Shown here: one piece after another, positions 2,114 to 17,508 of the stretch
How positions within the stretch are numbered: the first letter of the stretch is position 1
Layout of the letters: each line of letters starts with the position of its first letter
Source of the DNA: a virus
Reading direction: 5' to 3' (one strand)
IMG/VR virus record: IMGVR_UViG_3300047557_002289
Location: 1 to 29,675 of that record
DNA length: 29,675 nt
Program-made: the position numbers and the translations under genes
Notes under the pieces: model-generated
The model's input: the letters and a program-made list of their open reading frames with translations, nothing else
Database searches by the model: none
What the model was told of the DNA's origin: nothing

Positions 2114-2841
2114 CTCATATTAATGAAATGGAATCGGGGGTTATTCAGACTGGACAACAGCGCCATAAAGATTTTGTAAAGGGAAATTATATGGAAATTG
2201 CAGGGCAGTCTGATTATAATATTTTAAATGTTGATATTGGAGATGATTTTATTGGTGTCTTTGATACTGATTTTGATGGAACTGAGATGATCAACTTCTT
2301 TCATAACATGAAGAACTCCAATAATAATTTGTTCGATGGTCATTATATGCGTCGAAATACACAAACTCTTGATAAGGTTGCTTTACACCTTGAGGATGAA
2401 GCTTTATTTCTAGAAGTCAGTCCACAAAAACAAGATAGTTTTAATGTAACTATGAGTACGAGAGTTCTTGATTCTTATAATCAAATTATTGCAAAATGCT
2501 ATGCGGAATATGCAAAGAAATATACTATTCTCTATAATATGAAAGGTGCTCAGTATACTGTAAATATTCAAAAAACTGAACCTGGAGAAGGATATCACGT
2601 TTGGCATCACGAAGTTGAGAATATTCAAACATCAACTAGATATTTGGTCAGTATGTTATATCTCAATGATGTTATTGATGGTGGTGAAACAGAGTTTCTG
2701 CATCAACATCGTAGAGTCCAACCAAAGAAAGGAAGGGTAGTTCTTTGGCCACCTCAATGGACTCATACTCATAGAGGAAATCCTCCTTTAAAAGGTAAAA
2801 AATATATCGCAACAAGTTGGATTCATTTTGCTTTCGTCTAA
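2110..2841 (+). CDS. 2OG-Fe(II) oxygenase, prolyl 4-hydroxylase-like
   Basis: The C-terminal half is a double-stranded beta-helix of the P4H/2OG-Fe(II) dioxygenase family, which hydroxylates protein or small-molecule substrates using iron, O2 and 2-oxoglutarate. Visible landmarks are HxE at 166-168 for the proximal iron ligands, GGETEF at 191-196, the Pro-x-x-G-x-x-x-x-x-P strand, a distal His at 219 or 221 (WTHTHRG), and the basic 2OG-binding residue in GKKY (229-232). The first 110 residues include a region typical of phage versions. It is the last gene of the 1319-2841 operon and is followed by a late promoter. It is one of three such enzymes in the window. The substrate is unknown; virion proteins encoded next door are candidates. 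Confidence 0.85.
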   Translation: MTHINEMESGVIQTGQQRHKDFVKGNYMEIAGQSDYNILNVDIGDDFIGVFDTDFDGTEMINFFHNMKNSNNNLFDGHYMRRNTQTLDKVALHLEDEALFLEVSPQKQDSFNVTMSTRVLDSYNQIIAKCYAEYAKKYTILYNMKGAQYTVNIQKTEPGEGYHVWHHEVENIQTSTRYLVSMLYLNDVIDGGETEFLHQHRRVQPKKGRVVLWPPQWTHTHRGNPPLKGKKYIATSWIHFAFV

Positions 2842-2861
2842 TAAGTGGTATTGTTAAAAGT

Positions 2862-2869
2862 GATAAATA
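2862..2869 (+). promoter_or_regulatory. T4-type late promoter motif GATAAATA
   Basis: GATAAATA lies 26 bases before the start codon of the first virion gene. T4-like phages use TATAAATA-like -10 boxes with the phage late sigma factor (gp55) and no -35; cyanomyoviruses tolerate any base in the first position. Confidence 0.65.
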
Positions 2870-2894
2870 ATTAAAATCTTTTTATCCTGAATTA

Positions 2895-3401
2895 ATGGCG
2901 ACGATTATTAAGCCAAAAAGAAGTAGGAATTTAGGTATTGTACCTACGATTGCTCAACTTGCTGATGGTGAAATAGCCGTAAATATTCCCGATCAACGAA
3001 TTTATATTCGTGACGGTGCTAATATAAAGATTATTGCACAAGCTCCAACTGGTCTAACTGCTCAGTGGACTTATGTTGATTATAATGGACTTTCATCAGC
3101 AGAACTTTCTGCTGATGGTATAAGTATTGGTCTTGCAGTTCAAAAAAGATATCTAGCAGATTCTTCTTTGGGTGCATTCGAATTGAATTTGCCAACTAGT
3201 TCTTTAGCAGCTGGTGACAGTGTTGAGATTGCTGATCCATCAAATTATTGGTCAATTGCTCCAATTAAAGTAAATAGTCTGGCAGGTCATCAAATACGAG
3301 ATCAACTTGGTAATGTAGAAGATGGACCTTTTTGGTTGGATGTGTCAGGAGCACATATCTTCTTTCTTTGGACTGGTACTCTCTGGAGCGTAATACAATA
3401 A
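2895..3401 (+). CDS. Virion or tail-fibre-associated protein, 168 aa
   Basis: The opening (KPKRSRNLGIVPT.AQLADGEIAVNIPDQRIYIRDG) follows the 'R-G...P...L..GEiavN..d.kiyi.DG' pattern found at the N-terminus of many phage fibre and receptor-binding proteins, including the Mtd N-terminal domain family. The second half (LNLPTSSLAAGDSVEIADPS...FFLWTGTLWSVIQ) resembles the beta-rich domain that makes up almost all of the 111-aa protein at 7193-7528. Both patterns indicate a structural protein of the tail tip or fibres. It is the first gene after a late promoter, and its TAA stop overlaps the next ATG as TAATG. Confidence 0.7.
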   Translation: MATIIKPKRSRNLGIVPTIAQLADGEIAVNIPDQRIYIRDGANIKIIAQAPTGLTAQWTYVDYNGLSSAELSADGISIGLAVQKRYLADSSLGAFELNLPTSSLAAGDSVEIADPSNYWSIAPIKVNSLAGHQIRDQLGNVEDGPFWLDVSGAHIFFLWTGTLWSVIQ

Positions 3402-3766
3402 TGGCACTATCACTTAGCGGAGCTAATTCTAGTTCCTTTTCAGAATCAAACGGTTACTTTGTTTATGCCTTGAGAAGGGATGAAGATGATATGCTTTGGC
3501 TTACGAAAGTCAGTGCAGCATCTACTACAGAAACTGCTATAGATATTAATTATAGAAAAGATGGGACTCAAATTCCAGAAGTTTCTGATTATCAGGATTA
3601 CGTTGAGGAGACAACAGAAGAGAAATCTTTAACGAATCATCCACAAGATAAATACCAACAGATAAGATTTGACAAAAGAAATCTGAATTATTTTATTGAT
3701 AGTGATGGATTTTTTGTTATTCAGGTGAATGGCACCTACGATTACAACACCATAGGACCAAAATAA
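3401..3766 (+). CDS. Small probable structural protein, 121 aa
   Basis: The start is placed at ATG 3401 (MALSLSGANSSSFSESNG). It overlaps the previous stop by one base and has GGAG (3384-3387) about 13 bases upstream; the longer open frame begins inside the previous gene and is a shadow. The protein carries the phrase 'GYFVYALRRDEDDMLWLTKV' and a later echo 'DGFFVIQVNGTYDY', suggesting two related beta units. No family is recognised. Its position between virion genes suggests a structural or fibre-linked role. Confidence 0.7.
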   Translation: MALSLSGANSSSFSESNGYFVYALRRDEDDMLWLTKVSAASTTETAIDINYRKDGTQIPEVSDYQDYVEETTEEKSLTNHPQDKYQQIRFDKRNLNYFIDSDGFFVIQVNGTYDYNTIGPK

Positions 3767-3778
3767 GGAAACAAAAAA

Positions 3779-6700
3779 ATGGCAGAATTTAGACTTGGTA
3801 GACTAAAATTCAATTGGAGGGGTGAATGGTCGCCATCCACCGCTTATGTTGTTGATGATATTGTCAAACTTGGCGGTAATACTTATGTTTGTACTGTCAA
3901 CCACACTTCGGCTGCAAGAGAAGACTTGTGGTACTCTACAGACTTTAATATTGGAACACCAAGGTGGCAAATCCATGTAGAAGGTCTTAGACAAAGAGGT
4001 GCTTGGGTAGGATTAACAACGTACTCAATTAATGATGTCTTCCAATATGGTAACGGACAATTCCGTGTAATAACCCCACACTACTCTGTGGGTGCAGGTG
4101 TTAGTTTACAATATACTGCAGATTATATTTCTGGCAATAATGGTGAAGGTGGATGGGCATATGATACAGAGTATCAGTATGGTGATCTAGTTTATTATAA
4201 TGGCAGTATGTACGTTGGTATAATTACTGCTGGATCTGGATCTGTTAATAGAGGAATTAGACCTGCAGTTGGAATTAACACTGCCTGGCGTCTGATGACG
4301 ACTGGTATTTCTACTGCTGGTGTAACTACGTTCCAATATAATTCTACTTATGAGTATGGATCACTTGTAACATATGGTGGTAATACTTATGTTGCTACTG
4401 CATCATCAACAAGTGCTGTTGGTGCTCCTGCAGGATTAGGTGCAACTAGCACAAGTGAGTGGCAGTTACTTGTTCCTGGTCTTCGTTATGCTGGTGTATG
4501 GTCAACAGTCACTGAGTATCAATTAAATGATGTTGTAAGTTATATTCAATCATCTTACGTTTCGATTGCATCTTCAAACCAAGGAAATCTTCCTACAACA
4601 ACGGTAGGTAAGTGGGGTCTTTTAGCTCAAGGTGATGCTGGCGCTGTTATTGCTAATAGAGGTGATTTACTTACAAGAAATGCATCTTCTGTTGTTGCTC
4701 TTGGCATTGGTTCTACTGGAACTGTTTTAAGATCGACAGGATCTGATCCAATTTGGGATTATTTTGGAAATGCTCCTGCAAATTATTATGTTTCTTCTGT
4801 AGGACAAGATTGGGTAAGTTGGGGTAATACTCCAGAAACTCCATGGAAGACAATTAGATTTGCTTGCGATACGATTGCTTCTCAGGGGTTAGCCCCAGCA
4901 GTTCTGCACGTTGCTGCTGGTGTTTATCAAGAACAACTGCCAATTACGGTTCCTCGATTTACAGACGTTAGAGGTGCTTCTCAGAGAGCTGTGTTTGTTG
5001 AGCCTGCTAATGCTGGAATGTCAACAGGAACTATGTGGAGACTTAATGACTCCAACACTCTTTCTGAAATGACATTCAGAGGGATGACTGGTTGGGCAAA
5101 AACAACTTCTGATCCAGAGTTTATTCTGAAAGCAGATACAGGAACATTAAGACATCCTCCTGCTGGAGTTATTCTCGAATTAGATCCAAATAATCCTATT
5201 GAGTTTAAATCTCCATATGTTAAAGAATGTACTGGTATTGGTACTGGTTGTGTTGGTGCATACATTAATGGTAAGCACTATGTTGGAGTAAGTAGTTCAT
5301 ATAAGTCTTGTCTCTTCCACGCATATACAATTCTTTCTGATAATGGTGTTGGATATTGGGTTGATAATGGTGCAAAATGTGAAGTTATTTCAGGATTTAC
5401 TTACTGGTGTGATTATGGATATTTAACAACTAATGGTGGCGTTATTCGTGCTCTGAATGGAAATAATTCTTATGGCGAGTGGGGTGCAGTCAGCTTAGGA
5501 TATAGTCAAGATGAAGTCTTTAAACCAGCAGAACTTGATGGTGAGATGCTTGAGTATCCAACTGGTGGATTGATTGTTGTTGGTGGTGGTGTTACTGTTG
5601 GTGCGGCAATTACTGGTGAAACTTCAGGTGCTAGAGGAACGGTAATCTTTGATATTCCTTCGACACAAAGAATCATCTACAGACCTGTCGGAATGGAAAC
5701 ATTCCGTCCTAATGAAGTTATTTACATTGGTGGAGGATTTGTTGGATCTGGAGCAACTGCAAGATTGCTGAATAATCCTGATGCTATTAGTGGAATTAAA
5801 GGATTTATTTTCCCACTGAAAGGATTAACTCAAGAACCAAAACCACGTGGTAGTGTTACTTTTATTGGAGTTACTTCAACTTCACCAATTACTAGAAGAA
5901 CCGCAGGATCTTTATATGGTCCTGTTGCAGGATCTGGTTCAACCGTTGCTGCAGGTATTGGATCAGACTTGTTTGCATATGGTATTAGTGCAGTTAGTAA
6001 TTATGTTGCTCCTACATATGGTTTAGCTGGTTATGCTGGAACTTGGACACAAGCAGATCTTGGTGCTACAGGAACATATCCAAGTGTACAAGTCACTGGA
6101 AGTGCAACTGGCACTGGTGCATATTTAAATATCTCAATAGGTGCTACTGGGTACATTAGCAGTTTTGGAATTTCTACTTCTGGCATTGACTACGTTCAGG
6201 GAGAGCAGTTAACAATTGATGGTGCTCAAATTGGTGGTGTTGCGGGTGCAGCAGTTACATTTAATGCTGATACAATTCGTGGTACTGCAATCGTAAGAAC
6301 TAACGTTGAGAAAGTTAATCAAGGATTTGACGGTCAAGACATTAGAATTCGTTATGATTACAGTCAGATTAGACTTACTGGACACGATTTCTTAGAAATT
6401 GGTATTGGTAATAGATTAGAATCAAATTATCCAAACAAACCAGTTACACTACCTATTGATGGAAATCAAAAGGTTGAGGGGTATCCTGGACGTGTATACT
6501 TTGTAACTACTGACCAAGATGGCAACTTTAAAGTAGGTAACTATTTTGCTGTTGACCAGGCAACTGGTAGTGCAACTCTGAACGCTTCTGCGTTTAATCT
6601 TTCTGGTCTGACTTCTTTGAGGCTGGGTTCACTTGGTGGTCAAATTGGTGAAGCAATTAATGAATTCTCATCTGATGCAACAATGTCTGGAAACTCAAAT

Positions 6701-6793
6701 ACTGCAGTTCCTACTGAGTATGCTGTGAAGACATATGTTGATACTCAAACTCTTCTTGGAAGAGGATTTGCATACTGGATTGCTACCTCTTGA
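3779..6793 (+). CDS. Large tail-fibre-like virion protein, 1004 aa
   Basis: The protein is modular. Residues about 11-270 hold five tandem units (starting near 12, 71, 122, 181 and 236) with the pattern 'G.W...T.Y...D.V.Y....YV', like the small W/Y-rich carbohydrate-binding repeats of phage fibres and chitin-binding modules. A linker (RGDLLTRNASSVVALGIGST, from 294) leads to a segment starting near 340 (PWKTIRFACDTI...VLHVAAGVYQEQLPITVPRFTDVRG) typical of pectin-lyase-like right-handed beta-helices. The C-terminus (GRVYFVTTDQDGNFKVGNYF, then IGEAINEFSSDATMSGNS) matches the conserved tail of cyanomyovirus fibre proteins. The likely role is host-surface glycan contact, or a fibre shaft. It follows the 121-aa gene by 12 bases with an AAGGA-like site. 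Confidence 0.85.
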   Translation: MAEFRLGRLKFNWRGEWSPSTAYVVDDIVKLGGNTYVCTVNHTSAAREDLWYSTDFNIGTPRWQIHVEGLRQRGAWVGLTTYSINDVFQYGNGQFRVITPHYSVGAGVSLQYTADYISGNNGEGGWAYDTEYQYGDLVYYNGSMYVGIITAGSGSVNRGIRPAVGINTAWRLMTTGISTAGVTTFQYNSTYEYGSLVTYGGNTYVATASSTSAVGAPAGLGATSTSEWQLLVPGLRYAGVWSTVTEYQLNDVVSYIQSSYVSIASSNQGNLPTTTVGKWGLLAQGDAGAVIANRGDLLTRNASSVVALGIGSTGTVLRSTGSDPIWDYFGNAPANYYVSSVGQDWVSWGNTPETPWKTIRFACDTIASQGLAPAVLHVAAGVYQEQLPITVPRFTDVRGASQRAVFVEPANAGMSTGTMWRLNDSNTLSEMTFRGMTGWAKTTSDPEFILKADTGTLRHPPAGVILELDPNNPIEFKSPYVKECTGIGTGCVGAYINGKHYVGVSSSYKSCLFHAYTILSDNGVGYWVDNGAKCEVISGFTYWCDYGYLTTNGGVIRALNGNNSYGEWGAVSLGYSQDEVFKPAELDGEMLEYPTGGLIVVGGGVTVGAAITGETSGARGTVIFDIPSTQRIIYRPVGMETFRPNEVIYIGGGFVGSGATARLLNNPDAISGIKGFIFPLKGLTQEPKPRGSVTFIGVTSTSPITRRTAGSLYGPVAGSGSTVAAGIGSDLFAYGISAVSNYVAPTYGLAGYAGTWTQADLGATGTYPSVQVTGSATGTGAYLNISIGATGYISSFGISTSGIDYVQGEQLTIDGAQIGGVAGAAVTFNADTIRGTAIVRTNVEKVNQGFDGQDIRIRYDYSQIRLTGHDFLEIGIGNRLESNYPNKPVTLPIDGNQKVEGYPGRVYFVTTDQDGNFKVGNYFAVDQATGSATLNASAFNLSGLTSLRLGSLGGQIGEAINEFSSDATMSGNSNTAVPTEYAVKTYVDTQTLLGRGFAYWIATS

Positions 6794-6797
6794 TTAT

Positions 6798-6805
6798 TAT
6801 AAATA
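6798..6805 (+). promoter_or_regulatory. T4-type late promoter TATAAATA
   Basis: This is the perfect T4 late consensus, 45 bases before the 6850 start codon and just after the stop of the large fibre gene. Confidence 0.75.
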
Positions 6806-6849
6806 ACTTTAAGTAAAACATGAAATAAAACAAATTTGGAGTTTTCTAA

Positions 6850-7170
6850 ATGGCATCAGGAGTTTTAGGACAAGTTTCGTTGGCTGCGACGACATATACT
6901 ACAGTTTATACTGTGCCATCTCAAACTTTGTCATACGCGAACGTTAATATTGCGAATAGAAATACAACAAACGTTTCTGTCCGCGTGGCAATTACTACAG
7001 GAGCAACACCAACCACTGCTCAATTTATTGAATATGATGTTGATATTGCTCCAAACGGAGTTTTGGAAAGAACTGGACTTGTTCTTGATATTGGTAAGCA
7101 AGTGGTTGTTTATTCAGACACTGCAAATGTTTCCGTAGGGGTCTACGGAGTTGAGCAACTCGTATCATAA
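6850..7170 (+). CDS. Small beta-sandwich virion protein, 106 aa
   Basis: The protein is Thr/Val-rich and almost entirely beta. Residues about 27-104 (ANVNIANRNTTNVSVRVAI...FIEYDVDIAPNGVLERTGLVLDIGKQVVVYSD..NVSVGVYG) match, feature by feature, the two domains in the protein encoded at 20294-21493: N-x-x-x...V.V.I, then a D/E-Y-x-hydrophobic-Y/N turn, an acidic 'leading-edge' strand, 'G..V.V.S', then 'VS..V.G'. This is a repeated virion building block of cyanomyoviruses. It is driven by the late promoter at 6798; GGAG lies about 10 bases before the ATG. Confidence 0.75.
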   Translation: MASGVLGQVSLAATTYTTVYTVPSQTLSYANVNIANRNTTNVSVRVAITTGATPTTAQFIEYDVDIAPNGVLERTGLVLDIGKQVVVYSDTANVSVGVYGVEQLVS

Positions 7171-7192
7171 TATAAAGGAGACTTAAACTAAA

Positions 7193-7528
7193 ATGGCACG
7201 TTTCATCGCTACACCAAACACCACTACAACTTTGGTAGCAATTACTACCAACTACACTGCAAATCCTAATGAGACTATTCTTGCAGACACTGCAGGTGGT
7301 CCAATTACGGTTACGATTCCTTCATCGACCTCTGCAGTAATTGGCAGCAGAATCTCAATTGTTGATCCTGCAGGCACTTTTGGCAATTATAATTGTGTTG
7401 TAGGAACTACTACCTCAATTACAAAGATTGCTGCTCTTAACGAGAATCTAACTCTTAATGTTCCCTATACTTCTGTAGAACTTCTCTACTCGGGAGCATC
7501 ATATGGTTGGGTAATACTCAAGTCTTGA
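7193..7528 (+). CDS. Small beta-rich virion protein, 111 aa
   Basis: The pattern 'ETILADTAGGPITVTIPSS', then 'GSRISIVDPAG', then 'ELLYSGASYGWVI' is a common beta domain in phage tail and fibre proteins: 'D...G..TV.LP......G..i.i.D.....n...v......V.L.y.g..W.i'. A shorter version closes the 168-aa protein at 2895-3401. AAGGAG (about 7175-7180) precedes the ATG. The TGA stop lies inside a GATAAATG near-late-promoter motif. It is likely a minor virion or fibre component. Confidence 0.7.
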   Translation: MARFIATPNTTTTLVAITTNYTANPNETILADTAGGPITVTIPSSTSAVIGSRISIVDPAGTFGNYNCVVGTTTSITKIAALNENLTLNVPYTSVELLYSGASYGWVILKS

Positions 7529-7534
7529 TAAATG
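7527..7534 (+). promoter_or_regulatory. Degenerate late promoter motif GATAAATG
   Basis: The motif has two mismatches to TATAAATA and sits on the preceding stop codon, 31 bases before the first Gly/Cys-rich gene. Location and layout match the stronger motifs at 9800 and 10778, but the last base differs, so the call is weak. Confidence 0.35.
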
Positions 7535-7564
7535 ACTTATCTTTACTCGTGGGAGGAGTAGTAA

Positions 7565-8737
7565 ATGTCAAACCTAAGAGATTTAATCGCCTACGCTGAT
7601 AATACTACCTTCCAACAGGTTGTAGGTTTAACAACGGCTTCTATTGGATCGAAATATAAGCAAATTCGATTTATGAGCCACTGCGCTGTAAACCATCAGA
7701 CTCATTATTCTGCTATTAGATGGAAAGCACCAGTAAATACTAGTTTTATTAAATTTGAGATTTGGGGTCAAGGTGGTAGCGGCGGCGGTTCTTGTTGCTG
7801 TATGTGGGGTGGACCTGGTGGAGGCGGAGCATATGCGTTTAAAATTATTTGTGCAAAAGAATATGGTGATTTAAGTGGTTGTCCATATGAACTTTGTATT
7901 GCAACAGGTTCATGCTGCAGACCAGAAGGAAATCAATTTGGACAACAGGGTTGTAAGTCATATATTGTAGGACACGGTTTGTGTAATTTCTGTGCCGAAG
8001 GTGGTCACGGTGGAATTACAAAATGTGCTTTAAATAACGGATGTTGTTTCTGTTGGGGTAATAACTGGTCACCAGCATCAAGTTGTCTTGACCGTGCTGA
8101 TTCTGCTGGTCAGTGGATGATGGGTAAAACGTATGGTTGTGAATTTTTTTGTGGACCTCATTACATGCAGTGTGGACACTCTTGTTTCACTCCAGGTGGT
8201 GGTATTGGTCAAAGACAAACTTTCTTAATGGATGGATTACCTGAAATTTCAGTTTATGGAAATCTATTCGGCAACAAAGGTGATAGATATGATAGTTGCT
8301 GTGTAGAAGTATTCTTAGGACATCCTGTAAACCATTGTTATGGTGGTGCTTGCTTTGTTTCCATTCCGTATTGTGCTCCTTATTATGGTGCAGATGGTGG
8401 TGCCCACGGTTTACCTGGAATGATCACTTCTCCCTATAACCAGGATGCTGCACAATGGTGTATGGTTGTGGACCTTCACCCATATCCTGGTGGATTGATT
8501 AATACTCGTGGTGGTTGGGTTGCAATTCCACGTTGGGATATGAACAACTCTGGATATCAATCTCTTCACTCATACTCCAAATCGATGATGGGCGTAATGG
8601 CTGGTGGAGAGGGTTCTGATGATGCTCACAATCACTACATTCCTGGTTTAGGTGGAAAGAGTTCATCTTCTACTGGTGGTAATTGTTATTGTGGTGGACC
8701 AGGTGGTAATGGTATGATCCAAATTACATACGGTTGA
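7565..8737 (+). CDS. Gly/Cys-rich adhesin-like protein 1, 390 aa
   Basis: This is the first of three tandem paralogues. I count 29 cysteines (about 7%), including SCCCM at 76-80. After a short N-terminal domain (MSNLRDLIAY...) comes 'FEIWGQGGSGGGSCCCMWGG', then PGGGGAYAFK, then GCKSYIVGHGL.NFCAEGGHGG, YGADGGAHGLPG, HPYPGGLINTRGGW and a closing GGPGGNGMIQITYG. The layout is that of the common phage fibre domain 'V..WGGGGGG....PGGGGGY..K.......Y...VG.gG', but with many glycine-flanking residues replaced by cysteine. There is no signal peptide or membrane segment. A strong GGAGGAG ribosome-binding site precedes the ATG. A receptor-binding fibre tip is the likely role. It is also the most divergent of the three. 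Confidence 0.8.
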   Translation: MSNLRDLIAYADNTTFQQVVGLTTASIGSKYKQIRFMSHCAVNHQTHYSAIRWKAPVNTSFIKFEIWGQGGSGGGSCCCMWGGPGGGGAYAFKIICAKEYGDLSGCPYELCIATGSCCRPEGNQFGQQGCKSYIVGHGLCNFCAEGGHGGITKCALNNGCCFCWGNNWSPASSCLDRADSAGQWMMGKTYGCEFFCGPHYMQCGHSCFTPGGGIGQRQTFLMDGLPEISVYGNLFGNKGDRYDSCCVEVFLGHPVNHCYGGACFVSIPYCAPYYGADGGAHGLPGMITSPYNQDAAQWCMVVDLHPYPGGLINTRGGWVAIPRWDMNNSGYQSLHSYSKSMMGVMAGGEGSDDAHNHYIPGLGGKSSSSTGGNCYCGGPGGNGMIQITYG

Positions 8738-8748
8738 GGTAAACTAAA

Positions 8749-9801
8749 ATGGCAGATTTAAGACGTTTAACAAATACAGAAAACGCTGATCGTCTACAGC
8801 GTAATACCTTAACTGGACTGGCAAGTACTATTACTGGAAGAAGAGAAGGATCAATTCTCCCACCAGAAAGAGGTAGAGCGGGAAACATCTATCACAATGA
8901 TGTAGACACATCTTGGTCAACCTCTTGGGGTCCACACAAACCAGATGGATTTACAATGTTCTGGGGTGGACATTGTTGGAGTGAAAACTGTAACGCAAAC
9001 TATAATCGTTGGTGCCAAGCGTTCTGTGCAATGCCTGGAACCACCGAAATCACCTTCGAGATCTGGGGTGGTGGTGGATCTGGTGGAGGCGCTTGTTGCT
9101 GTATGCAAGGTTCTCCAGGCGGTGCAGGCGCTTATGGACGTAAAACAATTAGAGGATGTGATTTTCCTTCTGGTACTTTAGGAGGTTTTTGCTATCTCCT
9201 TTATGTTGCTCCACCTACTTGCTGCTCACAGTGCTGCACAGGTATTCGTGGATGTAAAACGTGGATTACTGGTTGTGGATTAAGTAATTTTTGTGCCGAT
9301 GGCGGTCTTCCTGGTAAGACTTGCTGCTTTGTCTGGTATTCTGGTGGTTCTTCACCAACTTATGGTCCTGGGTGCAGTGCTCATGAATTAAGATCTGCTA
9401 CAACGAATACTTCAGTTGGTGGTGGACCTGGATGCTATATCTTCCCACCTGACGGATTTAATTGGTGTGATTGTGCTTGTGCTTATGGTGCTGATTATGC
9501 TGTTGGTGGAAAACTTGGTTGGTTCCGTGTTAGCTGTGCCTGCGGTGATACTTGCTGGGTAAGTCTTGGTATTCCTCAACCTGGTGGTGTAAGAGATCAA
9601 TGTACAAGATACGTTGTATCACGTAATATGGGTAATGCCTGTATTAATGAATTTCCTGCTTGTGTTTGGGGAGAAATGACTGGTGATGTTTGTGGCAGAG
9701 GTATGTGGGGTCAGGGAGCTCCATCTGCAACCTCTTGTGGTGGTCCTTGCTGCTATGGTTGGCGTGGATCTAGAGGTTTAGTTAAAATTACATTTAAATG
9801 A
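8749..9801 (+). CDS. Gly/Cys-rich adhesin-like protein 2, 350 aa
   Basis: I count 33 cysteines (about 9%), the highest density of the three paralogues. Core: 'TFEIWGGGGSGGGACCCMQG' (CCCM at 116-119), PGGAGAYGRK, CCSQCC, GCKTWITGCGLSNFCADGG, PGGVRDQC, and a closing CGGPCCYGWRG...GLVKITFK. It has a longer N-terminal region (MADLRRLTNTENADRL...) than the other two. It begins 11 bases after the previous gene with a GAGG site and its TGA lies inside the next late promoter. If cysteines pair, they could brace a polyglycine-type sheet or helix bundle; pairing in a reducing cytoplasm would have to occur after release. Metal binding is an alternative, but no regular CxxC array is seen. Confidence 0.8.
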   Translation: MADLRRLTNTENADRLQRNTLTGLASTITGRREGSILPPERGRAGNIYHNDVDTSWSTSWGPHKPDGFTMFWGGHCWSENCNANYNRWCQAFCAMPGTTEITFEIWGGGGSGGGACCCMQGSPGGAGAYGRKTIRGCDFPSGTLGGFCYLLYVAPPTCCSQCCTGIRGCKTWITGCGLSNFCADGGLPGKTCCFVWYSGGSSPTYGPGCSAHELRSATTNTSVGGGPGCYIFPPDGFNWCDCACAYGADYAVGGKLGWFRVSCACGDTCWVSLGIPQPGGVRDQCTRYVVSRNMGNACINEFPACVWGEMTGDVCGRGMWGQGAPSATSCGGPCCYGWRGSRGLVKITFK

Positions 9802-9807
9802 TAAATA
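9800..9807 (+). promoter_or_regulatory. Late promoter motif GATAAATA overlapping a stop codon
   Basis: The motif starts on the G of the TGA stop of adhesin-like protein 2 (9799-9801) and lies 25 bases before the next ATG. GGGAG follows about 10 bases later as ribosome-binding site. Confidence 0.6.
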
Positions 9808-9831
9808 TCCTATAAGGGAGCGAAACAAAGA

Positions 9832-10779
9832 ATGTCTAATCTAAGAAGTTTACTCGGCACTAGAGATACTGAACTTATAGGAATTCACTCAGGTGGTATT
9901 GGCAATTTACGCAGAGGCCAGTCAACCTGGTTTATGATGCATATATGTGGTTCTTGCGCTGCTTTTGACTCCGCATATAATAATATGAATACATTGTATC
10001 AATGCTGGAGAGTTCCTGGATCACCTACAGGTACAGGAACAACTGTTGTTACTTTTGAGATCTGGGGCGGCGGCGGCGCTGGTGCAGGTGCTTGTTGCTG
10101 TATGATTGGTGTTCCTGGCGGTGCAGGTGCTTATGCACGTAAAACCGTTACAGGAATTGCATCAGGAACTGCTTATGATATTTGTATTGGAACTTTATCT
10201 TGTGGAGTTCCTGGTGATACTGGAAGTAGAGGTTGTAAGTCATATATTACAGGATCTGGTCTAAGTAACTTCTGTGCTGAGGGTGGACATTCTGGATGCT
10301 CTTTCTGCCATTTATGTTGGGGTTATGGTAGTGAATGGGTTGTTGCAATGGGTGGTGCCGCAGCTGGTTGCTGTGGTTTACTATATGGTGGTTGCTATGG
10401 TGTCGCTGGTTGGGGTGGTGCCTGCGCTGGATGTTGTGCTCTATTTTATGGTGCAGACTTTGGTGCATTTGGATTGCCTAGTGCCGCAACCATTTATCAA
10501 TGGACTGCTTGTAGAGAACTGAATAGATATCACTTTGCTTATCCTGGTGGATTGGTAAATGAGCAAGGTGGTTATGTTTCAGTTGCATTTTGTGAAAACA
10601 CAATCTGTTCTTACTTCGAATCTTGCGGTGGACATAATGCCGTTGGATTTGGTGGTGGAGATAGGATGGGTTATGTTCCAGGAATGCCTGGTGGTTCTGC
10701 ACGTGTTTGTGCTGGACCTTGTTGTTGTGGTATGCAGGGTCGTCCAGGCGCTGCAAGAATCACTGTTAACTGGATCTGA
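9832..10779 (+). CDS. Gly/Cys-rich adhesin-like protein 3, 315 aa
   Basis: I count 27 cysteines (about 9%) in 315 residues. Core: 'TFEIWGGGGAGAGACCCMIG' (CCCM at 88-91), PGGAGAYARK, GCKSYITGSGLSNFCAEGGHSG, CCGLLYGGC, GACAGCC, YGADFGAFGLPS, AYPGGLVNEQGGY and a closing AGPCCCGMQG...ARITVNWI. It shares a 14-base identical stretch coding CCCM with both sisters (7791, 9092 and 10091). It has its own late promoter and GGGAG site. The likely product is a third interchangeable adhesin or fibre-tip subunit; which fibre carries it cannot be read from the sequence. Confidence 0.8.
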   Translation: MSNLRSLLGTRDTELIGIHSGGIGNLRRGQSTWFMMHICGSCAAFDSAYNNMNTLYQCWRVPGSPTGTGTTVVTFEIWGGGGAGAGACCCMIGVPGGAGAYARKTVTGIASGTAYDICIGTLSCGVPGDTGSRGCKSYITGSGLSNFCAEGGHSGCSFCHLCWGYGSEWVVAMGGAAAGCCGLLYGGCYGVAGWGGACAGCCALFYGADFGAFGLPSAATIYQWTACRELNRYHFAYPGGLVNEQGGYVSVAFCENTICSYFESCGGHNAVGFGGGDRMGYVPGMPGGSARVCAGPCCCGMQGRPGAARITVNWI

Positions 10780-10785
10780 TAAATA
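10778..10785 (+). promoter_or_regulatory. Late promoter motif GATAAATA overlapping a stop codon
   Basis: It begins on the TGA of adhesin-like protein 3 (10777-10779), 22 bases before the 10807 ATG. AGGAG follows at about 10789-10793, slightly far from the start codon. Confidence 0.6.
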
Positions 10786-10806: not shown

Positions 10807-11787
10807 ATGGCTAAACATATTCGCAAAGTATTTCAATACGATTTACCTGATGAGTATCTTTCGAATGAAAGCACTCTAGGTTTAAAAGCAGAATGGACAT
10901 ATGATGGTCCAGAAAAAATTTGGGTGTTTGTTGATTATAAAACAAACAAACTCTTAGCAAGAGAGTCTTTTAGAGAATATGATGAGGTTGAACCAGAAAG
11001 ACAGTATGAAATGTTAGAAGAATATACTGGCCTTAATTCATATCCAGTTCTCATCACATTCGATGATGATCCACTTTTATTGGCGGCTATTGCACAAATT
11101 GCCCCTTTTATGAAGGATCTTCCCACTAAAAAGTATTTTCATCCAGAAACAAAAGAACTGTTTTATGAAAGACCTCATCCAACAGTTCCAGATCACACAA
11201 TTGAAGTAGCAGATTGTGAGTATGATCCCACTCTAAAGAGATGGAAAAAACCATATCCATGGAAAATTCCTCATATTGTTAGAGCAGAATTTGAGTTTCA
11301 TCACAAGGTCATCGTTGAAGATGCTCTTCAGATTAAAGAAAGATATGATGAAAATAATTGGACTAAAGATCAAAGAAAGCAATGGGATGAATATATTGCT
11401 AAAATGCAAGAAGTTCCAACAAAATTTGCTGCTTGGTTAGATACTCCCTGGATGGTTCCATTTCCAGACGATCCAAGATTATCTCCTGATTGGCCAGATT
11501 TTGTTAATGCTGATCCTGATTCTGGAAATCTTCCTGCCCCAGATCCACAACCTAAGGTTATATTTGATGGTGGTTTAGTTAATGATCCTGCTGGTGCTTA
11601 TATTGTAGTTTCTTCTCCAACTGAAAGAGTCGAAAATCCAGGAGGTGGATTTGATGTTGGAATAGGACAAACAGCAGTGTTTAATATCGTTCCTCCAGAA
11701 AACGAAACTGATGAAGAAGCAGGTAGAGCACCTGGTATGATAGATTGGACAAAGGTTCAAGAACCAGAAGCACCCTCAGCAGAATAA
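10807..11787 (+). CDS. Conserved-type phage protein, possible fibre-assembly factor, 326 aa
   Basis: The protein is soluble and acidic, with no signal peptide. It is rich in Trp, Pro and charged residues, and ends in a Pro/Glu/Asp tail (DWTKVQEPEAPSAE nearby). The segment around 195-235 (WTKDQRKQWDEYIAKMQEVP followed by PWMVPFPDDPRLSPDWP) resembles the C-terminal pattern of tail-fibre assembly proteins, 'T.eQ...W..Y...L..ip...W..P'. It sits directly downstream of the adhesin-like genes, the place T4 uses for its fibre-assembly gene. Both points are suggestive only; I do not firmly recognise the family. A strong terminator follows. Confidence 0.65.
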   Translation: MAKHIRKVFQYDLPDEYLSNESTLGLKAEWTYDGPEKIWVFVDYKTNKLLARESFREYDEVEPERQYEMLEEYTGLNSYPVLITFDDDPLLLAAIAQIAPFMKDLPTKKYFHPETKELFYERPHPTVPDHTIEVADCEYDPTLKRWKKPYPWKIPHIVRAEFEFHHKVIVEDALQIKERYDENNWTKDQRKQWDEYIAKMQEVPTKFAAWLDTPWMVPFPDDPRLSPDWPDFVNADPDSGNLPAPDPQPKVIFDGGLVNDPAGAYIVVSSPTERVENPGGGFDVGIGQTAVFNIVPPENETDEEAGRAPGMIDWTKVQEPEAPSAE

Positions 11788-11848: not shown

Positions 11849-12421
11849 GTGCAGGTACTTGACGATTTTATTGTAATAGATGATTGTATTAATCCTGTTT
11901 ATCAGGATGCATTGGAGAATATGATTCTTAATGATAGAAATTTTTATTGGAATTTCTATCCAAATCTTGTCGTTTATGGTGGATCTAGAGCAGAAATTAT
12001 TTCTGATGCCATTGGTTTTTCTCATATTTGGATGGCAGACTACAAATCTACAAGCACTTATGCTGGATTTATGATGCCATTACTTTATGAAGCATCTGTG
12101 AAGGCAAATATAAAGGTTAATCAAATAATTCAAGGCAGATGTTTTATGCAAATCCCAACAATAAAAACAACAGAATGGGATGGAATGCACGTTGATTTTA
12201 GTAAACCTCACAATGTTTGTCTATACTATGTAAACGATTCTGATGGAGATACTTTTTTTAGCATTAAAAATAATTTGCATAAAAAACCAAATGAGTTTCC
12301 TATTTTAAAAAGAGTGACTCCTAAAAAAGGTCGGTGTGTATTTTTTAATGGAGAACATTATCATTCGAGTAGTAAACCAACTCAGAATCCAAGAGCAGTA
12401 ATCAATATCAACTTTAATTGA
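11849..12421 (+). CDS. 2OG-Fe(II) oxygenase-like protein, 190 aa
   Basis: The start is a GTG: the only nearby ATG (11824) is out of frame, and the family-typical opening (QVLDDFIVIDD) begins right after it. It opens with the 'v.DdFi' start seen in phage 2OG oxygenases. Iron ligands are HVD at 114-116 and His170 or His172 (GEHYHSS), with Arg182 as the 2-oxoglutarate anchor. The strands GDTFF and 'PKKGRCVFFNG' are the expected DSBH elements. It stands as the first gene after the fibre block and 69 bases before the glycosyltransferase, and has its own promoter. The substrate is unknown. The weak start signal suggests low expression. Confidence 0.75.
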   Translation: MQVLDDFIVIDDCINPVYQDALENMILNDRNFYWNFYPNLVVYGGSRAEIISDAIGFSHIWMADYKSTSTYAGFMMPLLYEASVKANIKVNQIIQGRCFMQIPTIKTTEWDGMHVDFSKPHNVCLYYVNDSDGDTFFSIKNNLHKKPNEFPILKRVTPKKGRCVFFNGEHYHSSSKPTQNPRAVININFN

Positions 12422-12490: not shown

Positions 12491-13663
12491 ATGAGATCGA
12501 CTGCGTTTTTTGTAAACGGTGGAGCTGGGCGTGTAATTTGCTCAATTCCTGCATTTGAGAAATATAAAGAAGAAAATCCTGACGACGACTTTATTATTGT
12601 TTGTGAGGGCGGAACAGACTTTTTTAAGGGACATACAGATCTTTATCCAAGAGTGTATGATCATTGGCATAAAGATTTGTTTAGAACTCACATCCAGATG
12701 CGTAATGTGGTTACGACAGAACCATATCGTATCTGGGAATATTACAATCAAAAGTGTAATCTAAGTCAAGCTTTTGACATTCAGATTAATAATAAAGGTG
12801 TTAGGGAACTTCCTAAACCAACTATTAAACTCTCTCGCCAAGAAATGATTCAGGCGAAATTTGTTGTCGAAGAAGTTCGCCAAGCAACAAAGAAAAACAA
12901 AATAGTTGTTTTCCAACCCTTTGGTCGTGGTGCTCAGATGATGGGCAATTTTATCACCGATTCTGGAGGAAGAAGTTATGAGCTTGTTAACGTTCTTTCG
13001 ATTGTCAAAAAATTGCAAAAGAGAGGATATGCGATTATTTTTATGAGTGAATTTGCAATTGATTTTCAGAAGGAAGGTTGCAAAGAACCTGTTGCAACTC
13101 CATCAGGAATTGATCTGCGTCAGTGGGCGGCGATTATTGCAGAGGCAGATCTTCTTCTTGGATGTGATTCTGTAGGACAGCATATTGCATACTCTCAGGA
13201 TATCCCCGCAGTTGTAGTTGTAGGATCAACTTGCAAAGAAAATATTAGTTATCCTGATTGTGAAAAGTTTGAAGTTCTTGATATGGGGGAAGGACTTCGA
13301 ATTTACGATCCAATTCGTATTTGTGCCGATGAAGTTACCTTCAGGAATAACGACGGCATTATGGCAATGAATGACAAAATAGAAAATGTTATTGTTGACA
13401 GTGTTGACAAAATGATCAAAAAATATTATGTTAAAAAAGAAGAAGTAATTGTTCTTCCGAATCAAAATTGTGGTCCGCAAGGATGTGAACCACAACAAAC
13501 AACATCACAATTTAAGGGAGCAACTGAAGTTTCTCAAGCAATAACTCCTGCATTGGACGTTCCTAAAAAAACAAGTGCTGTTGAAGAGTTAATTAAATCA
13601 ACAACCAATCTCAAAAACAATGGTAAAAAACCATCTGGATTTTTAGACACTATTAAAAACTAA
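12491..13663 (+). CDS. GT9-family glycosyltransferase (heptosyltransferase-like), 390 aa
   Basis: The sequence shows two GT-B halves: an N-terminal 'NGGAGRVICSIPAFEKY' (9-25) like the 'G.GD.l...P.l..l' of ADP-heptose:LPS heptosyltransferases, and a C-terminal 'VVFQPFGRGAQ' (139-149) plus 'LLLGCDSVGQHIAYSQDIPAVVVVGS' region (221-246), the donor-binding 'D...G..HlA.....P...lfG' signature. The family transfers heptose, or a related sugar, from ADP-heptose. About 75 extra residues (315-390) extend past the catalytic fold; they contain CGPQGC (327-332) and a Lys/Pro/Thr-rich tail, and may hold a partner or acceptor. It is the first gene of the operon and has a GAGGCGAG ribosome-binding site. A protein or a lipopolysaccharide acceptor is possible. 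Confidence 0.8.
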   Translation: MRSTAFFVNGGAGRVICSIPAFEKYKEENPDDDFIIVCEGGTDFFKGHTDLYPRVYDHWHKDLFRTHIQMRNVVTTEPYRIWEYYNQKCNLSQAFDIQINNKGVRELPKPTIKLSRQEMIQAKFVVEEVRQATKKNKIVVFQPFGRGAQMMGNFITDSGGRSYELVNVLSIVKKLQKRGYAIIFMSEFAIDFQKEGCKEPVATPSGIDLRQWAAIIAEADLLLGCDSVGQHIAYSQDIPAVVVVGSTCKENISYPDCEKFEVLDMGEGLRIYDPIRICADEVTFRNNDGIMAMNDKIENVIVDSVDKMIKKYYVKKEEVIVLPNQNCGPQGCEPQQTTSQFKGATEVSQAITPALDVPKKTSAVEELIKSTTNLKNNGKKPSGFLDTIKN

Positions 13664-13676
13664 TTAGAGGATTGAT

Positions 13677-15359
13677 ATGACTGTTATTGTTTCTTGTGCT
13701 CGTGGTCACAATGCAAGTACCACTCTTATGGTTGATGGTGAGATTGTTTTTTATCTAGAAGAAGAAAGACTTTCTCGTTTTAAATATGACGGATCTCCCT
13801 TAATGGGACTTCTTAAAGTATTTGAATATGTTGATCATATTGACCATCTTGTAGTTTGTCATACACATCGTCATGGACCTGTTCTTGACTGGTGTGGAGA
13901 CGATTTGTATCAAGGTTTGATTCGTAAGATTGCTCGAAAGAAATTTGATTTCCACACTCATTTTATTGATACTATTCACCACGAAATGCATGCTGCGTGT
14001 GGATTTTATAACTCAGGATTTGAGACTGCAGCTTGTGTAATTGCTGATGGTGCTGGAAGTTTCTTACAAATGGACGGTGTTAATGATACTTTCTATGAGT
14101 TCGAGACAATTTTTAAAGCATCTTATCCAAAAGAATTCGAGATTATCTATAAACATCTAGGAACAAAATCTCCTATTGGGTGCAATGAAACCCAACCTGG
14201 AGTTTTTGCAACTGAATATCCTGGACATACAAAGATGTATGAGGCAGTGACTGAATATTGTGGTTTCCCTGCTATTGAGGCAGGAAAACTGATGGGTCTT
14301 GCTCCTTATGGATCTCCCAATTCAGATCTTCCACCTTTCTTTAGGGGTGAATGGGGTAATCGTGAACTGATTATTCCAACCTATCCGAATGCTGCTCGTA
14401 TTAATACGACTCGTTTCCCCATTCTTGCAGAAGATGTTAAGCAACATAAGAAGGGTGAGTATACTCAAATCCAAAAGGATATGGCATATGCTATTCAGGA
14501 AGCAACTGAAAATCGTATGATTCAGTTGATTCAGAAAGCATATGAAGAAACAGGTGAAACTAACATTGTTGTTTGTGGTGGTTATGGTCTCAACTGTGTT
14601 GCTAACTACAAGTATTGGCAAGCATTCCCTGATCTGAATATTTACTGCGAGCCTATCTCTCACGATGGTGGTACTTCGATTGGTGGTGCTAAGTATCTCT
14701 GGAATCAACTTACTGACAATACAGAACCTTCTGTTCAGGCATCTGTTTATTATGGTCCTCAGTATGATCCCGATTTCTATATGGATGAACTTGATGGATA
14801 TGAAGTTTCCGATACCTCTTATGATGACGTTGCACAACTAATTCGTGATGGAAACATCGTTACGATTTATCAGGGACGTTCTGAAGGTGGTCCTCGTGCT
14901 CTTGGTAATCGTTCAATTCTTTTTGACCCAACAATTGTCAATGGTAAAGATATCGTAAATGCTGTGAAGCGTCGTGAATGGTTCCGTCCATTTGCTTGCT
15001 CTATCAAGAAAGAAGCGGTTCACGAATGGTTTGATCTTGCTGGTCGTGAAGAAACTCCTCATATGATGTACGCTGTCAAGTGTCTAGATGGTGTTGAGGA
15101 AAAAATTCCTTCTGTTATTCACGTTGATGGTACTTGTAGAATTCAGACTGTGACAAAAGAACAAAACGAACACTATTATAATTTGATTGATGCATTTGAT
15201 AAAGTCACGGGTGTTCCCATTCTGTTTAATACTAGTTTTAATCTTGGTGGAGATCCACTGGTAGAAACACTCGAAGATGCACTTTTAACTCTTCGAACCA
15301 GTGATATTGAGTATATGTATCTGCCTGAAATTCAAAAACTTGTCTATGTTCCTAACTGA
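13677..15359 (+). CDS. NodU/CmcH-family carbamoyltransferase 1, 560 aa
   Basis: This family moves the carbamoyl group of carbamoyl phosphate, through carbamoyl-AMP, to a hydroxyl, usually of a sugar or antibiotic. Visible landmarks: the N-terminal Kae1-like domain with the metal-binding HxxxH (101-105) and DGAG (124-127); the GGYGLNCVANY motif (301-311); and the C-terminal domain with GRSEGGPRALGNRSI (400-414), REWFRPFA (433-440), HVDGTCR (482-488) and PILFNTSFNLGGDP (514-527). Length is normal for the family. AGAGGA precedes the ATG. A second member follows after only 2 bases. Arg codons are mostly CGT (about 16 of 21), unlike the neighbour. Confidence 0.92.
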   Translation: MTVIVSCARGHNASTTLMVDGEIVFYLEEERLSRFKYDGSPLMGLLKVFEYVDHIDHLVVCHTHRHGPVLDWCGDDLYQGLIRKIARKKFDFHTHFIDTIHHEMHAACGFYNSGFETAACVIADGAGSFLQMDGVNDTFYEFETIFKASYPKEFEIIYKHLGTKSPIGCNETQPGVFATEYPGHTKMYEAVTEYCGFPAIEAGKLMGLAPYGSPNSDLPPFFRGEWGNRELIIPTYPNAARINTTRFPILAEDVKQHKKGEYTQIQKDMAYAIQEATENRMIQLIQKAYEETGETNIVVCGGYGLNCVANYKYWQAFPDLNIYCEPISHDGGTSIGGAKYLWNQLTDNTEPSVQASVYYGPQYDPDFYMDELDGYEVSDTSYDDVAQLIRDGNIVTIYQGRSEGGPRALGNRSILFDPTIVNGKDIVNAVKRREWFRPFACSIKKEAVHEWFDLAGREETPHMMYAVKCLDGVEEKIPSVIHVDGTCRIQTVTKEQNEHYYNLIDAFDKVTGVPILFNTSFNLGGDPLVETLEDALLTLRTSDIEYMYLPEIQKLVYVPN

Positions 15360-15361
15360 TA

Positions 15362-17101
15362 ATGTGGTTTTTATCTTTTAATATTCATCACGATTCTGCT
15401 GTAACGTTAATGAACGACACTGAAGTCGTTCTTCATATCGAAGAGGAAAGAATATCTCATAATAAACACGCTCGCTTTCCTCTTCATGTTTTACAATTAA
15501 TTCAGAAATATACTAAAGTTATTGATTATTGTTCCTATACGCACCTATGGGACTTTAATACAGATCCTACTGTGTATATTAAATACCTTGATGATTTTTG
15601 TGGTTTAGAAAAAGTTTATGATGTTCGATCAGCAGAACATCATCATTCTTTACACGCATCTTGTGCTTTTTATCATTCTGACTTTGATGAAGCAGTTGTT
15701 GTAGTTTTAGATGGAGCGGGAGCAGATCATCATTATGGAAAAGAAAATGAAACTATTTTTAAAATGGTTAAAAATAGTGATACTCCAGCACCAGAAATTT
15801 TATATCAATCTGTAGTAGGTAGTGGTATTGTTAAAAGTAATGAAAACAAACCTATTCCCAAATATGTAAATCCTAAAAAAACTGTTGGGGCAGGAATGGT
15901 TTATTCTGCTGCCACAGAATGGTTAGGATGGTCAGGTTTAGATTGTGGAAAAACAATGGGTCTTGCACCTTATGGTGAGGAAGATAAAAATATTAAACCA
16001 ATGTTAGCAAAATCTGGTGGAGTTGATGGAAGATTTGGTTTAGTTAGTTATCACAACGTAGAAAACATTGGTGTGATGTTAAAGGGATATGAATATATTG
16101 AGGCTTCTGAACCTATTTCAGGATATTCAGACCTTAATGGAATAACGATAGAAATGAAAATGCTTGCGGGAAGAGCAGACTATGGCGAAGAAGAATTGGA
16201 ACGTAGAAGAAGAAATTTTGCTTATAAAATTCAGAAAGAATATGAAGAGTATTTAATTCATCTTTGCAAAAAAGCTTTATCTTTATCTGGTTCTAAAAAT
16301 CTTATTTTGACGGGTGGGTGTGCATTAAATTGTGTTGCTAATTATAAGTTACTTAAATCTTTGCCAGAAGATGTTAAACTTTATGTAGAACCAATATCGT
16401 CTGATGGTGGAGTATCAATGGGTGCAGTCTTTAATTTAGTATCAAAAGCATATCCTGATAAGCAGAATGATTTAAAAATAAAAAATCTCTATCTTGGACA
16501 ACAAATGAAATATGATTATGAATTAAATGATGGTGAAACCGAGCAACAAATTACTCCCCAAGAAGTTGCACAACTTTTGGTGGATGGAAATATAGTTGCT
16601 ATCGCACAAGGGAGATCTGAGGCAGGTCCTAGAGCACTTGGTAATCGCTCTATTTTATTTGATCCTAGACATCCACAAGGTAAAGATATAGTCAATCGAG
16701 TTAAAAAGAGAGAATACTTTAGACCTTTTGCAGGAACTGTTCTTTTGGAACACGCTAGAGATTGGTTTGATATGGATCGTCTTGACGAAAGTCCTTTTAT
16801 GATGTATGCTATAGATGTATTGCCTGAAAAGCAAAAAGAAATACCTGCCATTACTCACGTCGATGGAACTTGTAGAGTTCAGACTCTTACAAAAGAGCAG
16901 AATGAAAACTATTATAATCTAATAGAAGAGTTTTATAAACTGACAGGAGTGCCGATTGTTTTTAATACTTCATTCAATTTGGCAGGTGATACTATTGTTG
17001 AGACTATAGAAGACGCATTTAGAACTCTCAGAAATAGTGAAATTGAGTATCTTTATTTACCAGAAATTAGAAAATTAATTAAAGTACCTAATAACCTATG
17101 A
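15362..17101 (+). CDS. NodU/CmcH-family carbamoyltransferase 2, 579 aa
   Basis: This gene has the same domain order as its neighbour: HxxxH (94-98), DGAG (117-120), a 'GGCALNCVANYKLL' motif, GRSEAGPRALGNRSI, REYFRPFAG, HVDGTCRVQTLTKEQNENYY and PIVFNTSFNLAGD. The sequence between these motifs differs, notably a charged insert (GREDYGEEELERRRRNF-like, near 265-285) and a different 140-180 region, so the acceptor may differ. Arg is coded by AGA in about 16 of 22 cases, against CGT in gene 1, so the pair probably did not arise by a recent local duplication. Its start is coupled to the previous stop (TGATAATG), and the stop overlaps the next gene as ATGA. Confidence 0.92.
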   Translation: MWFLSFNIHHDSAVTLMNDTEVVLHIEEERISHNKHARFPLHVLQLIQKYTKVIDYCSYTHLWDFNTDPTVYIKYLDDFCGLEKVYDVRSAEHHHSLHASCAFYHSDFDEAVVVVLDGAGADHHYGKENETIFKMVKNSDTPAPEILYQSVVGSGIVKSNENKPIPKYVNPKKTVGAGMVYSAATEWLGWSGLDCGKTMGLAPYGEEDKNIKPMLAKSGGVDGRFGLVSYHNVENIGVMLKGYEYIEASEPISGYSDLNGITIEMKMLAGRADYGEEELERRRRNFAYKIQKEYEEYLIHLCKKALSLSGSKNLILTGGCALNCVANYKLLKSLPEDVKLYVEPISSDGGVSMGAVFNLVSKAYPDKQNDLKIKNLYLGQQMKYDYELNDGETEQQITPQEVAQLLVDGNIVAIAQGRSEAGPRALGNRSILFDPRHPQGKDIVNRVKKREYFRPFAGTVLLEHARDWFDMDRLDESPFMMYAIDVLPEKQKEIPAITHVDGTCRVQTLTKEQNENYYNLIEEFYKLTGVPIVFNTSFNLAGDTIVETIEDAFRTLRNSEIEYLYLPEIRKLIKVPNNL

Positions 17102-17508
17102 AAAAAGTATTTGTTAACGGAACATTTGACCTTCTTCACGTTGGTCATCTTGAACTATTAAACTATGCTCGTCAGCAAGGTGATTATTTGGTCGTTGGTT
17201 TGGATTGTGACGAGCGAGTCAAACAACTTAAAGGACCAGGACGACCAATTCACAATCAACTCGAAAGAATGCATATGCTTATGAACATTCGAGCAGTTGA
17301 TGAGGTTGTTATTTTTCTGAGTGATGATGGTTTAGAAGATCTAGTAAGTCGAGTAAGTCCAGACCTTATGATCGTTGGATCAGACTGGAAAGGAAAACCT
17401 ATTATTGGTTCAGAGTACGCAAAAGAGGTTCGTTTTTATGATAGGCTACCCAACTTTTCAACAACAAACATCATTAAAAGTATTATTGATCGGAGAGACT
17501 TGCTCTGA
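17098..17508 (+). CDS. HldE/RfaE-type nucleotidyltransferase, 136 aa
   Basis: The nucleotidyltransferase fold with HVGH (14-17) in 'GTFDLLHVGHLELLNYAR', plus 'VVGLDCDERVKQLKGPGRP' and 'PDLMIVGSDW', matches the C-terminal half of HldE, which makes ADP-heptose from heptose 1-phosphate and ATP. A glycerol-3-phosphate cytidylyltransferase-like enzyme (CDP-activated polyol) is a real alternative, since the folds are shared. The gene overlaps the carbamoyltransferase by 4 bases and the kinase by 71. Bacterial HldE has kinase then nucleotidyltransferase in one chain; here the two are separate genes in the reverse order. Confidence 0.85.
   Translation: MKKVFVNGTFDLLHVGHLELLNYARQQGDYLVVGLDCDERVKQLKGPGRPIHNQLERMHMLMNIRAVDEVVIFLSDDGLEDLVSRVSPDLMIVGSDWKGKPIIGSEYAKEVRFYDRLPNFSTTNIIKSIIDRRDLL

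Follow-up and report, generated by a model that had tools for sequence, protein, structure and literature searches.

The DNA analyzed here is a 29.7-kb virus record (IMG/VR record IMGVR_UViG_3300047557_002289; "the window" refers to this whole stretch of 29,675 nucleotides), which looks like a fragment of a marine T4-like cyanophage genome and encodes a long tail fibre, virion structural proteins, 2-oxoglutarate (2OG)-Fe(II) oxygenases, carbamoyltransferases and sugar-nucleotide genes. Our subject is a trio of adjacent genes on its + strand, i.e., trio gene 1 (7565..8737; 390 amino acids with 29 cysteines, a predicted glycine-rich fibre-tip protein), trio gene 2 (8749..9801; 350 amino acids with 33 cysteines) and trio gene 3 (9832..10779; 315 amino acids with 27 cysteines). 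Cysteine represents 7.4, 9.4 and 8.6%, and glycine 17.7, 17.7 and 21.0%, of the residues in the three products, respectively; the remaining 28 listed open reading frames (ORFs) in the window contain at most 3.8% cysteine, except for one ORF of 73 amino acids with four cysteines (5.5%). Each trio protein carries a CCCM core (SCCCM, ACCCM and ACCCM, respectively). A first-pass annotation of the window had singled out these three neighbouring genes for their cysteine and glycine content and their CCCM core, and both the ORFs and the cysteine counts were reproduced here.

All three proteins matched phrog_4205, a family of unknown function, over most of their length (E = 1e-54, 4e-54 and 4e-50), as did 134 of 134 aligned family members. 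A profile search over all loci, including IMG/VR, yielded 440 complete members (approx. 360 distinct) from more than 150 records, in which cysteine makes up 6.0-13.0% of the residues (median 10.2%); exactly three members were present in 105 of the 134 loci of at least 6 kb. The named relatives are found in S-CAM1 and S-CAM3 (three genes each, in the equivalent place), P-SSM2 (PSSM2_304 and 306), S-SSM7 (SSSM7_114-116) and Sf-FS3 (97-99). When twelve phage genomes were searched whole with the profile, cysteine-rich members occurred in three (P-SSM2, S-SSM7 and Sf-FS3), the sole match in Syn9 was a distant relative, gp38 (2 cysteines in 266 amino acids), and the other eight (S-SM1, S-PM2, P-HM1, P-SSM4, S-SM2, S-CRM01, HTVC008M and T4) gave no profile match. 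The first-pass annotation had called for a search of cyanophages for the CCCM family and its copy number, which thus returned 440 members, mostly as trios; Syn9 gp38 fits its further statement that related fibre domains carry the glycine frame but few cysteines. A host origin of the family was considered and set aside, as a scan of genome contigs gave no relative. The trio family has so far been annotated only as hypothetical proteins, and no report of cysteine-rich cyanophage fibres was found in the literature searched; the extreme cysteine content would be a variant feature on a known glycine-rich fibre tip. One contig (L042) carries five family members at 2180-8109 and a sixth adjoining ORF (6068-7069; 333 amino acids, 9.6% cysteine) that falls under the profile threshold.

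AlphaFold2 models were obtained for trio gene 3 (pLDDT 78, pTM 0.79) and trio gene 2 (pLDDT 71.5, pTM 0.73). In Foldseek searches, the best PDB match of the gene 2 model was the Pam3 fibre (7ypx; E = 4.9e-5), while the top match of the gene 3 model was the Bxb1 tail tip (9d93), with the Pam3 fibre (7ypx/7yfw) among its three significant PDB matches (E = 1.8e-4 for the Pam3 type); the gene 2 model matched the Bxb1 tail tip as well. Matches to Pam3-type fibres had a probability of 1.00 and a TM-score to the target of 0.53, with models of moderate confidence; the ALK/LTK glycine-rich domain was a weak PDB match of both models, and matches in BFVD included proteins of S-CAM3 and P-SSM2, Syn9 gp38 and many proteins with glycine-rich domains. 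At the sequence level, PF21722 (Gly_rich_2) was matched by 59 of the 134 family members (E <= 0.01; best 2e-17) and by Syn9 gp38; the window copies scored 21.9 bits (trio gene 1, E = 2e-4), 15.8 bits and no match, all under the gathering cut-off of 24.3 bits. PHROG 863 ("tail fiber assembly") was matched by 18 of the 134 members, and a sequence search of the PDB with the family profiles gave no match, even at E = 10. The Pam3 fibre contains a tumour necrosis factor (TNF)-like domain and a glycine-rich domain whose distal loops have been proposed to bind the receptor, and its protein gp24 requires a Tfa-type chaperone, gp25, which is not found in the virion (PMC9608196). A 2026 paper grouped Pam3, Bxb1, S16 gp38 and ALK as glycine-rich polyproline II (PPII) helical bundles (PMC13243192). 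As the predicted folds resemble those of the Pam3 fibre and the Bxb1 brush domains, and 59 of 134 members match Gly_rich_2, the trio proteins are very probably fibre-tip adhesins.

This assignment, which the first-pass annotation had made in suggesting adhesin-like fibre proteins, is also backed by the gene cassette in which the trio lies between a long fibre and a gene of a chaperone family, all on the + strand. Upstream are the gene for a long tail-fibre protein with carbohydrate-binding module (CBM) 5/12-like modules (3779..6793), a conserved cassette member, and two small genes kept in most cassettes, i.e., 6850..7170 (106 amino acids, matching tail-fibre PHROGs) and 7193..7528 (111 amino acids, matching fibre or baseplate PHROG domains); downstream, 10807..11787 encodes a putative Tfa-type fibre assembly chaperone of 326 amino acids (phrog_9740). 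In most of 28 diverse loci, the long-fibre gene was followed by one or two small genes, then by the trio, a phrog_9740-type gene and, last, a glycosyltransferase and a carbamoyltransferase gene; several loci have an extra phrog_9740-type gene behind the first trio gene. The cut-off of PF16778 (Phage_tail_APC), a phage tail assembly chaperone family, was passed by six relatives of the 10807 gene, and tail-fibre-assembly PHROGs were matched too; as it is these relatives and not the window copy that match PF16778, we infer a fibre chaperone role for the 10807 product from its family. In P-SSM2, the gene between the two cysteine-rich copies, PSSM2_305 (11382-12059 on L061), showed a weak likeness to the start of phrog_9740 (E = 0.017) and may represent a divergent chaperone of the P-SSM2 lineage. 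Nearly every cassette inspected has glycosyltransferase and carbamoyltransferase genes downstream of the trio (12491-19463 in the window), accompanied in some by cytidylyltransferase and cupin genes; these genes could possibly form a sugar or carbamoyl modification pathway tied to the fibre.

The late promoter consensus of S-PM2 is NATAAATA (PMC2984593). Late-promoter-like motifs were found on the + strand of the window at 9800..9807 (GATAAATA, 25-32 nucleotides upstream of trio gene 3), at 10778..10785 (GATAAATA, upstream of the chaperone-like gene 10807) and at 6798..6805 (TATAAATA, upstream of the 6850 gene), the last of which possibly serves the genes from 6850 to 9801. The heptamer ATAAATA has nine copies on the + strand of the window and none on the other strand; seven of the nine copies lie 15-60 nucleotides upstream of a start (0.44 expected), including those of trio gene 3 and 10807. 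The trio is thus probably expressed late, judging from these motifs.

Conservation of cysteine was assessed in 93 non-overlapping pairs of closely related members (85-98.5% identity), with 84 pairs of flanking proteins as controls. Cysteine was unchanged at 99.5% of the places in the family, the highest value of all residues, as compared to 97.1% for cysteine in the flanking proteins, so that its rate of change is approx. six times lower in the family; these data support strong selection on the trio cysteines. Several alignment columns contain 90-97% cysteine, the CCC core 82-97%, and the columns with at least 90% include the second and third cysteine of CCC, C39, C148 and C227 (trio gene 3 numbering). 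Among the 134 family members, CC pairs (774 vs. 357 in shuffled sequences) and CCC (190 vs. 33) were strongly enriched, and CxxC was near expectation (379 vs. 355, standard deviation 16). Chance composition as the source of the cysteine richness is ruled out by this conservation and by the CC and CCC enrichment. The extreme conservation suggests that the fibre tips may be cross-linked or metal-bound outside the cell.

Taken as a whole, the reading that we favour, with modest confidence, is that the trio encodes receptor-binding proteins at the fibre tip of a cyanomyovirus, which become cross-linked through their cysteines after release. Each protein would consist of a TNF-like beta-sandwich extended into a glycine-rich bundle, as in Pam3 gp24 and the mycobacteriophage brush domains; the proteins would probably be made late, fold with the aid of the chaperone-like 10807 protein and enter the virion on the long fibre encoded at 3779 or next to it. 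The cysteines, the feature that marks the family out, would be placed along the glycine loops and the adjoining strands; their thiols would stay reduced inside the cell, and disulfides would form upon release into oxygenated water, within and between subunits, locking and stiffening the tip. For the cysteines taken by themselves, we lean slightly towards disulfide cross-linking as their main role. The presence of three non-identical copies suggests either a hetero-oligomer or three parallel tips. A stricter proposal, which we regard as rather unlikely, is that the trio forms an obligate hetero-oligomeric (probably heterotrimeric) tip, its subunits densely linked by disulfides that would not close until lysis has brought the proteins into oxygenated water; it is raised because most loci carry exactly three copies, triplication appears lineage-specific, odd cysteine counts occur and cysteine is the most conserved residue.

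Several results weigh against the cross-linked fibre-tip reading. No proteomic detection of the family in virions was found in the literature searched; the TM-scores against solved structures are modest (0.3-0.53); the 10807 protein of the window matches phrog_9740 only, with no match to Pfam or chaperone models, and the P-SSM2 gene between the two cysteine-rich copies matches no chaperone model either. Even and odd cysteine counts are equally common among family members (179 vs. 180), 14 of the 19 changed pairs among the 93 close-relative pairs differ by exactly one cysteine change, and an analysis of co-variation among cysteine columns, which is confounded by phylogeny and alignment, found no clean pairing. 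The total count per trio likewise shows no bias towards even numbers (34 even vs. 53 odd). As odd counts are as frequent as even ones and most changes are single, the cysteines do not all sit in fixed intrachain pairs, and strict intrachain pairing of every cysteine is disfavoured; the pattern leaves room for inter-subunit disulfides, metal binding, partial pairing or a mixture of these.

Metallothionein-like clusters are rich in CC and CCC, and the strong enrichment of both in the family resembles them. One alternative is that the cysteines bind metal, as iron-sulfur, zinc or copper clusters located within the glycine-rich bundle or at its end; these clusters would be loaded inside the cell and taken along in the virion, where they would stabilize the tip or engage a metal-uptake receptor of the host. 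Metal binding would suit a reducing cytoplasm and is not at odds with either the odd counts or the single changes, and potential iron-binding fibre domains have been described for an Alteromonas phage (PMC11705849). However, the most common spacing of metal-binding cysteines, CxxC, shows no enrichment, none of the fold neighbours found is known as a metal protein and no metalloprotein family was matched in Pfam, so that we consider this explanation possible but doubtful. It is less probable still that the trio proteins are absent from the virion, as late intracellular or secreted proteins or unretained assembly factors whose cysteines serve folding only. The lack of virion proteomics for the family in the literature searched and the label "tail fiber assembly" on some glycine-rich relatives would fit such a role, but the folds match fibres that are in virions, a distinct chaperone-type gene adjoins the trio, the cassette is located among fibre genes and a late-promoter motif lies upstream. 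We also think it improbable, to about the same degree or slightly more so, that some distal-loop cysteines stay free and undergo thiol-disulfide exchange with host surface proteins, making adsorption covalent or irreversible. Comparison with Syn9 gp38 places the CCC core close to the turn of the first loop, flanked by the two glycine runs of that loop, distal loop ends are the proposed receptor sites of Pam3, and odd counts fit free thiols; yet the CCC core ranks with the best conserved parts of the family, unlike a variable receptor site, and approx. 27-33 cysteines per chain far exceed what an exchange reaction needs.

The remaining alternative concerns the history of the copies. The 14-mer CTTGTTGCTGTATG, which codes for the CCCM core, is present on the + strand at 7791..7804 (CCC codons at 7793-7801), 9092..9105 and 10091..10104, exact at all three positions as the first-pass annotation had reported, and no other 14-mer is shared by all three genes; the stretch had been taken to point to duplication or gene conversion and perhaps adhesin switching. 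Codon identity at residues shared among the trio genes is 0.45-0.57, as compared to 0.48 expected from codon usage; as this is close to the usage expectation, the 14-mer appears to be mainly a conserved peptide with shared codon choice and not the product of recent conversion. Close relatives (L007 and L008) use other codons at CCC, same-position orthologues of the S-CAM type cluster in trees, and the three ORFs are intact and adjoining, with no common repeat except the 14-mer. Apart from the exact 14-mer itself, the grouping of copies by phage lineage makes ancient homogenization conceivable, but recent conversion or switching among the three copies is very improbable, and neither claim was borne out in the window. 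Trees showed copies of the S-CAM type to be orthologous by position (full support for group 2, less firm for groups 1 and 3), while all 18 copies of the S-SSM7 type formed one clade, as did 12 copies from another four contigs, and the share of best matches at the same position dropped to one third between distant trios. In view of this drop and of the S-SSM7-type clade, the idea that the trio arose once and kept its positions in every lineage is not supported. The trio may have arisen repeatedly, or its copies may have been homogenized early in each lineage; given long branches and midpoint roots, the trees are suggestive only. Family-wide, the triple TGC TGC TGT encodes CCC in 38 of 117 cases (7.2 expected), i.e., five times more commonly than expected, and all of the relatives listed have TGC as their middle codon; this bias may reflect a constraint on DNA or mRNA.

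Among known systems, Pam3 gp24/gp25 (PDB 7YPX, 7YFW; PMC9608196), from a cyanobacterial myophage, resembles the trio in its TNF-like and glycine-rich fold, predicted here for the trio, and in the Tfa-type chaperone alongside, whose counterpart at 10807 is putative and assigned by family. Pam3 gp24, however, has a helical shaft and a domain of 39% glycine and forms a single fibre, whereas the trio comprises three paralogues with 18-21% glycine and 7-9% cysteine beside a separate long fibre. Pam3 fibres are reportedly tied to the baseplate by disulfides. The Bxb1 brush domains (PDB 9D93), the top match of trio gene 3, are glycine-rich PPII bundles located at the tip of the tail, but belong to a siphophage and are not known to have an extreme cysteine content. 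Proteins with Gly_rich_2, including Syn9 gp38, have the first-loop frame WxxP, GGGGxG and GGAGAY in common with the trio; Syn9 gp38 has 0.8% cysteine, as compared to 6-13% in the trio family. The adhesin gp38 of Salmonella phage S16 (PDB 6F45), a polyglycine II bundle at a fibre tip, appears to work in a like manner, but has another N-terminal domain, is not known to be rich in cysteine and was not among the 50 PDB matches listed. With respect to cysteine, the closest parallels are the Agrobacterium phages Milano, where a disulfide network in virion proteins was established by cryo-electron microscopy (cryo-EM) and mass spectrometry (PMC10811340), and 7-7-1, where it was established by cryo-EM (PMC12796354). 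Disulfides are demonstrated in those virions and are proposed for the trio; moreover, cysteine in Milano and 7-7-1 amounts to 1.4-2.6% across sheath, baseplate and capsid proteins, in contrast to approx. 10% in a single fibre-tip family.

Receptor-binding proteins of marine cyanomyoviruses are mostly without assignment, and the trio provides a concrete set of candidates, present in the cultured isolates S-CAM1, S-CAM3, P-SSM2 and S-SSM7, where databases list a "hypothetical protein". A content of 7-13% nearly invariant cysteine is unusual for a fibre tip made in a reducing cytoplasm, and raises the questions of whether virions mature by oxidation after lysis, whether they carry a metal cargo and whether three paralogues share one tip; a hetero-oligomeric disulfide tip, if true, would be a redox-matured receptor-binding organ.

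The usual partner of phage glutaredoxins is ribonucleotide reductase. A glutaredoxin gene is located at 24591-24827 in the window (PF00462, E = 4.5e-11), and the P-SSM2 glutaredoxin (nrdC) lies approx. 8 kb downstream of the cysteine-rich genes of that phage; any connection with the trio cysteines is speculative. Two clear-cut 2OG-Fe(II) oxygenase genes (PF13640) are found near the fibre genes at 2110-2841 and 18505-19104, and a third candidate, with a score under the cut-off, directly follows the chaperone-like gene at 11849-12421.

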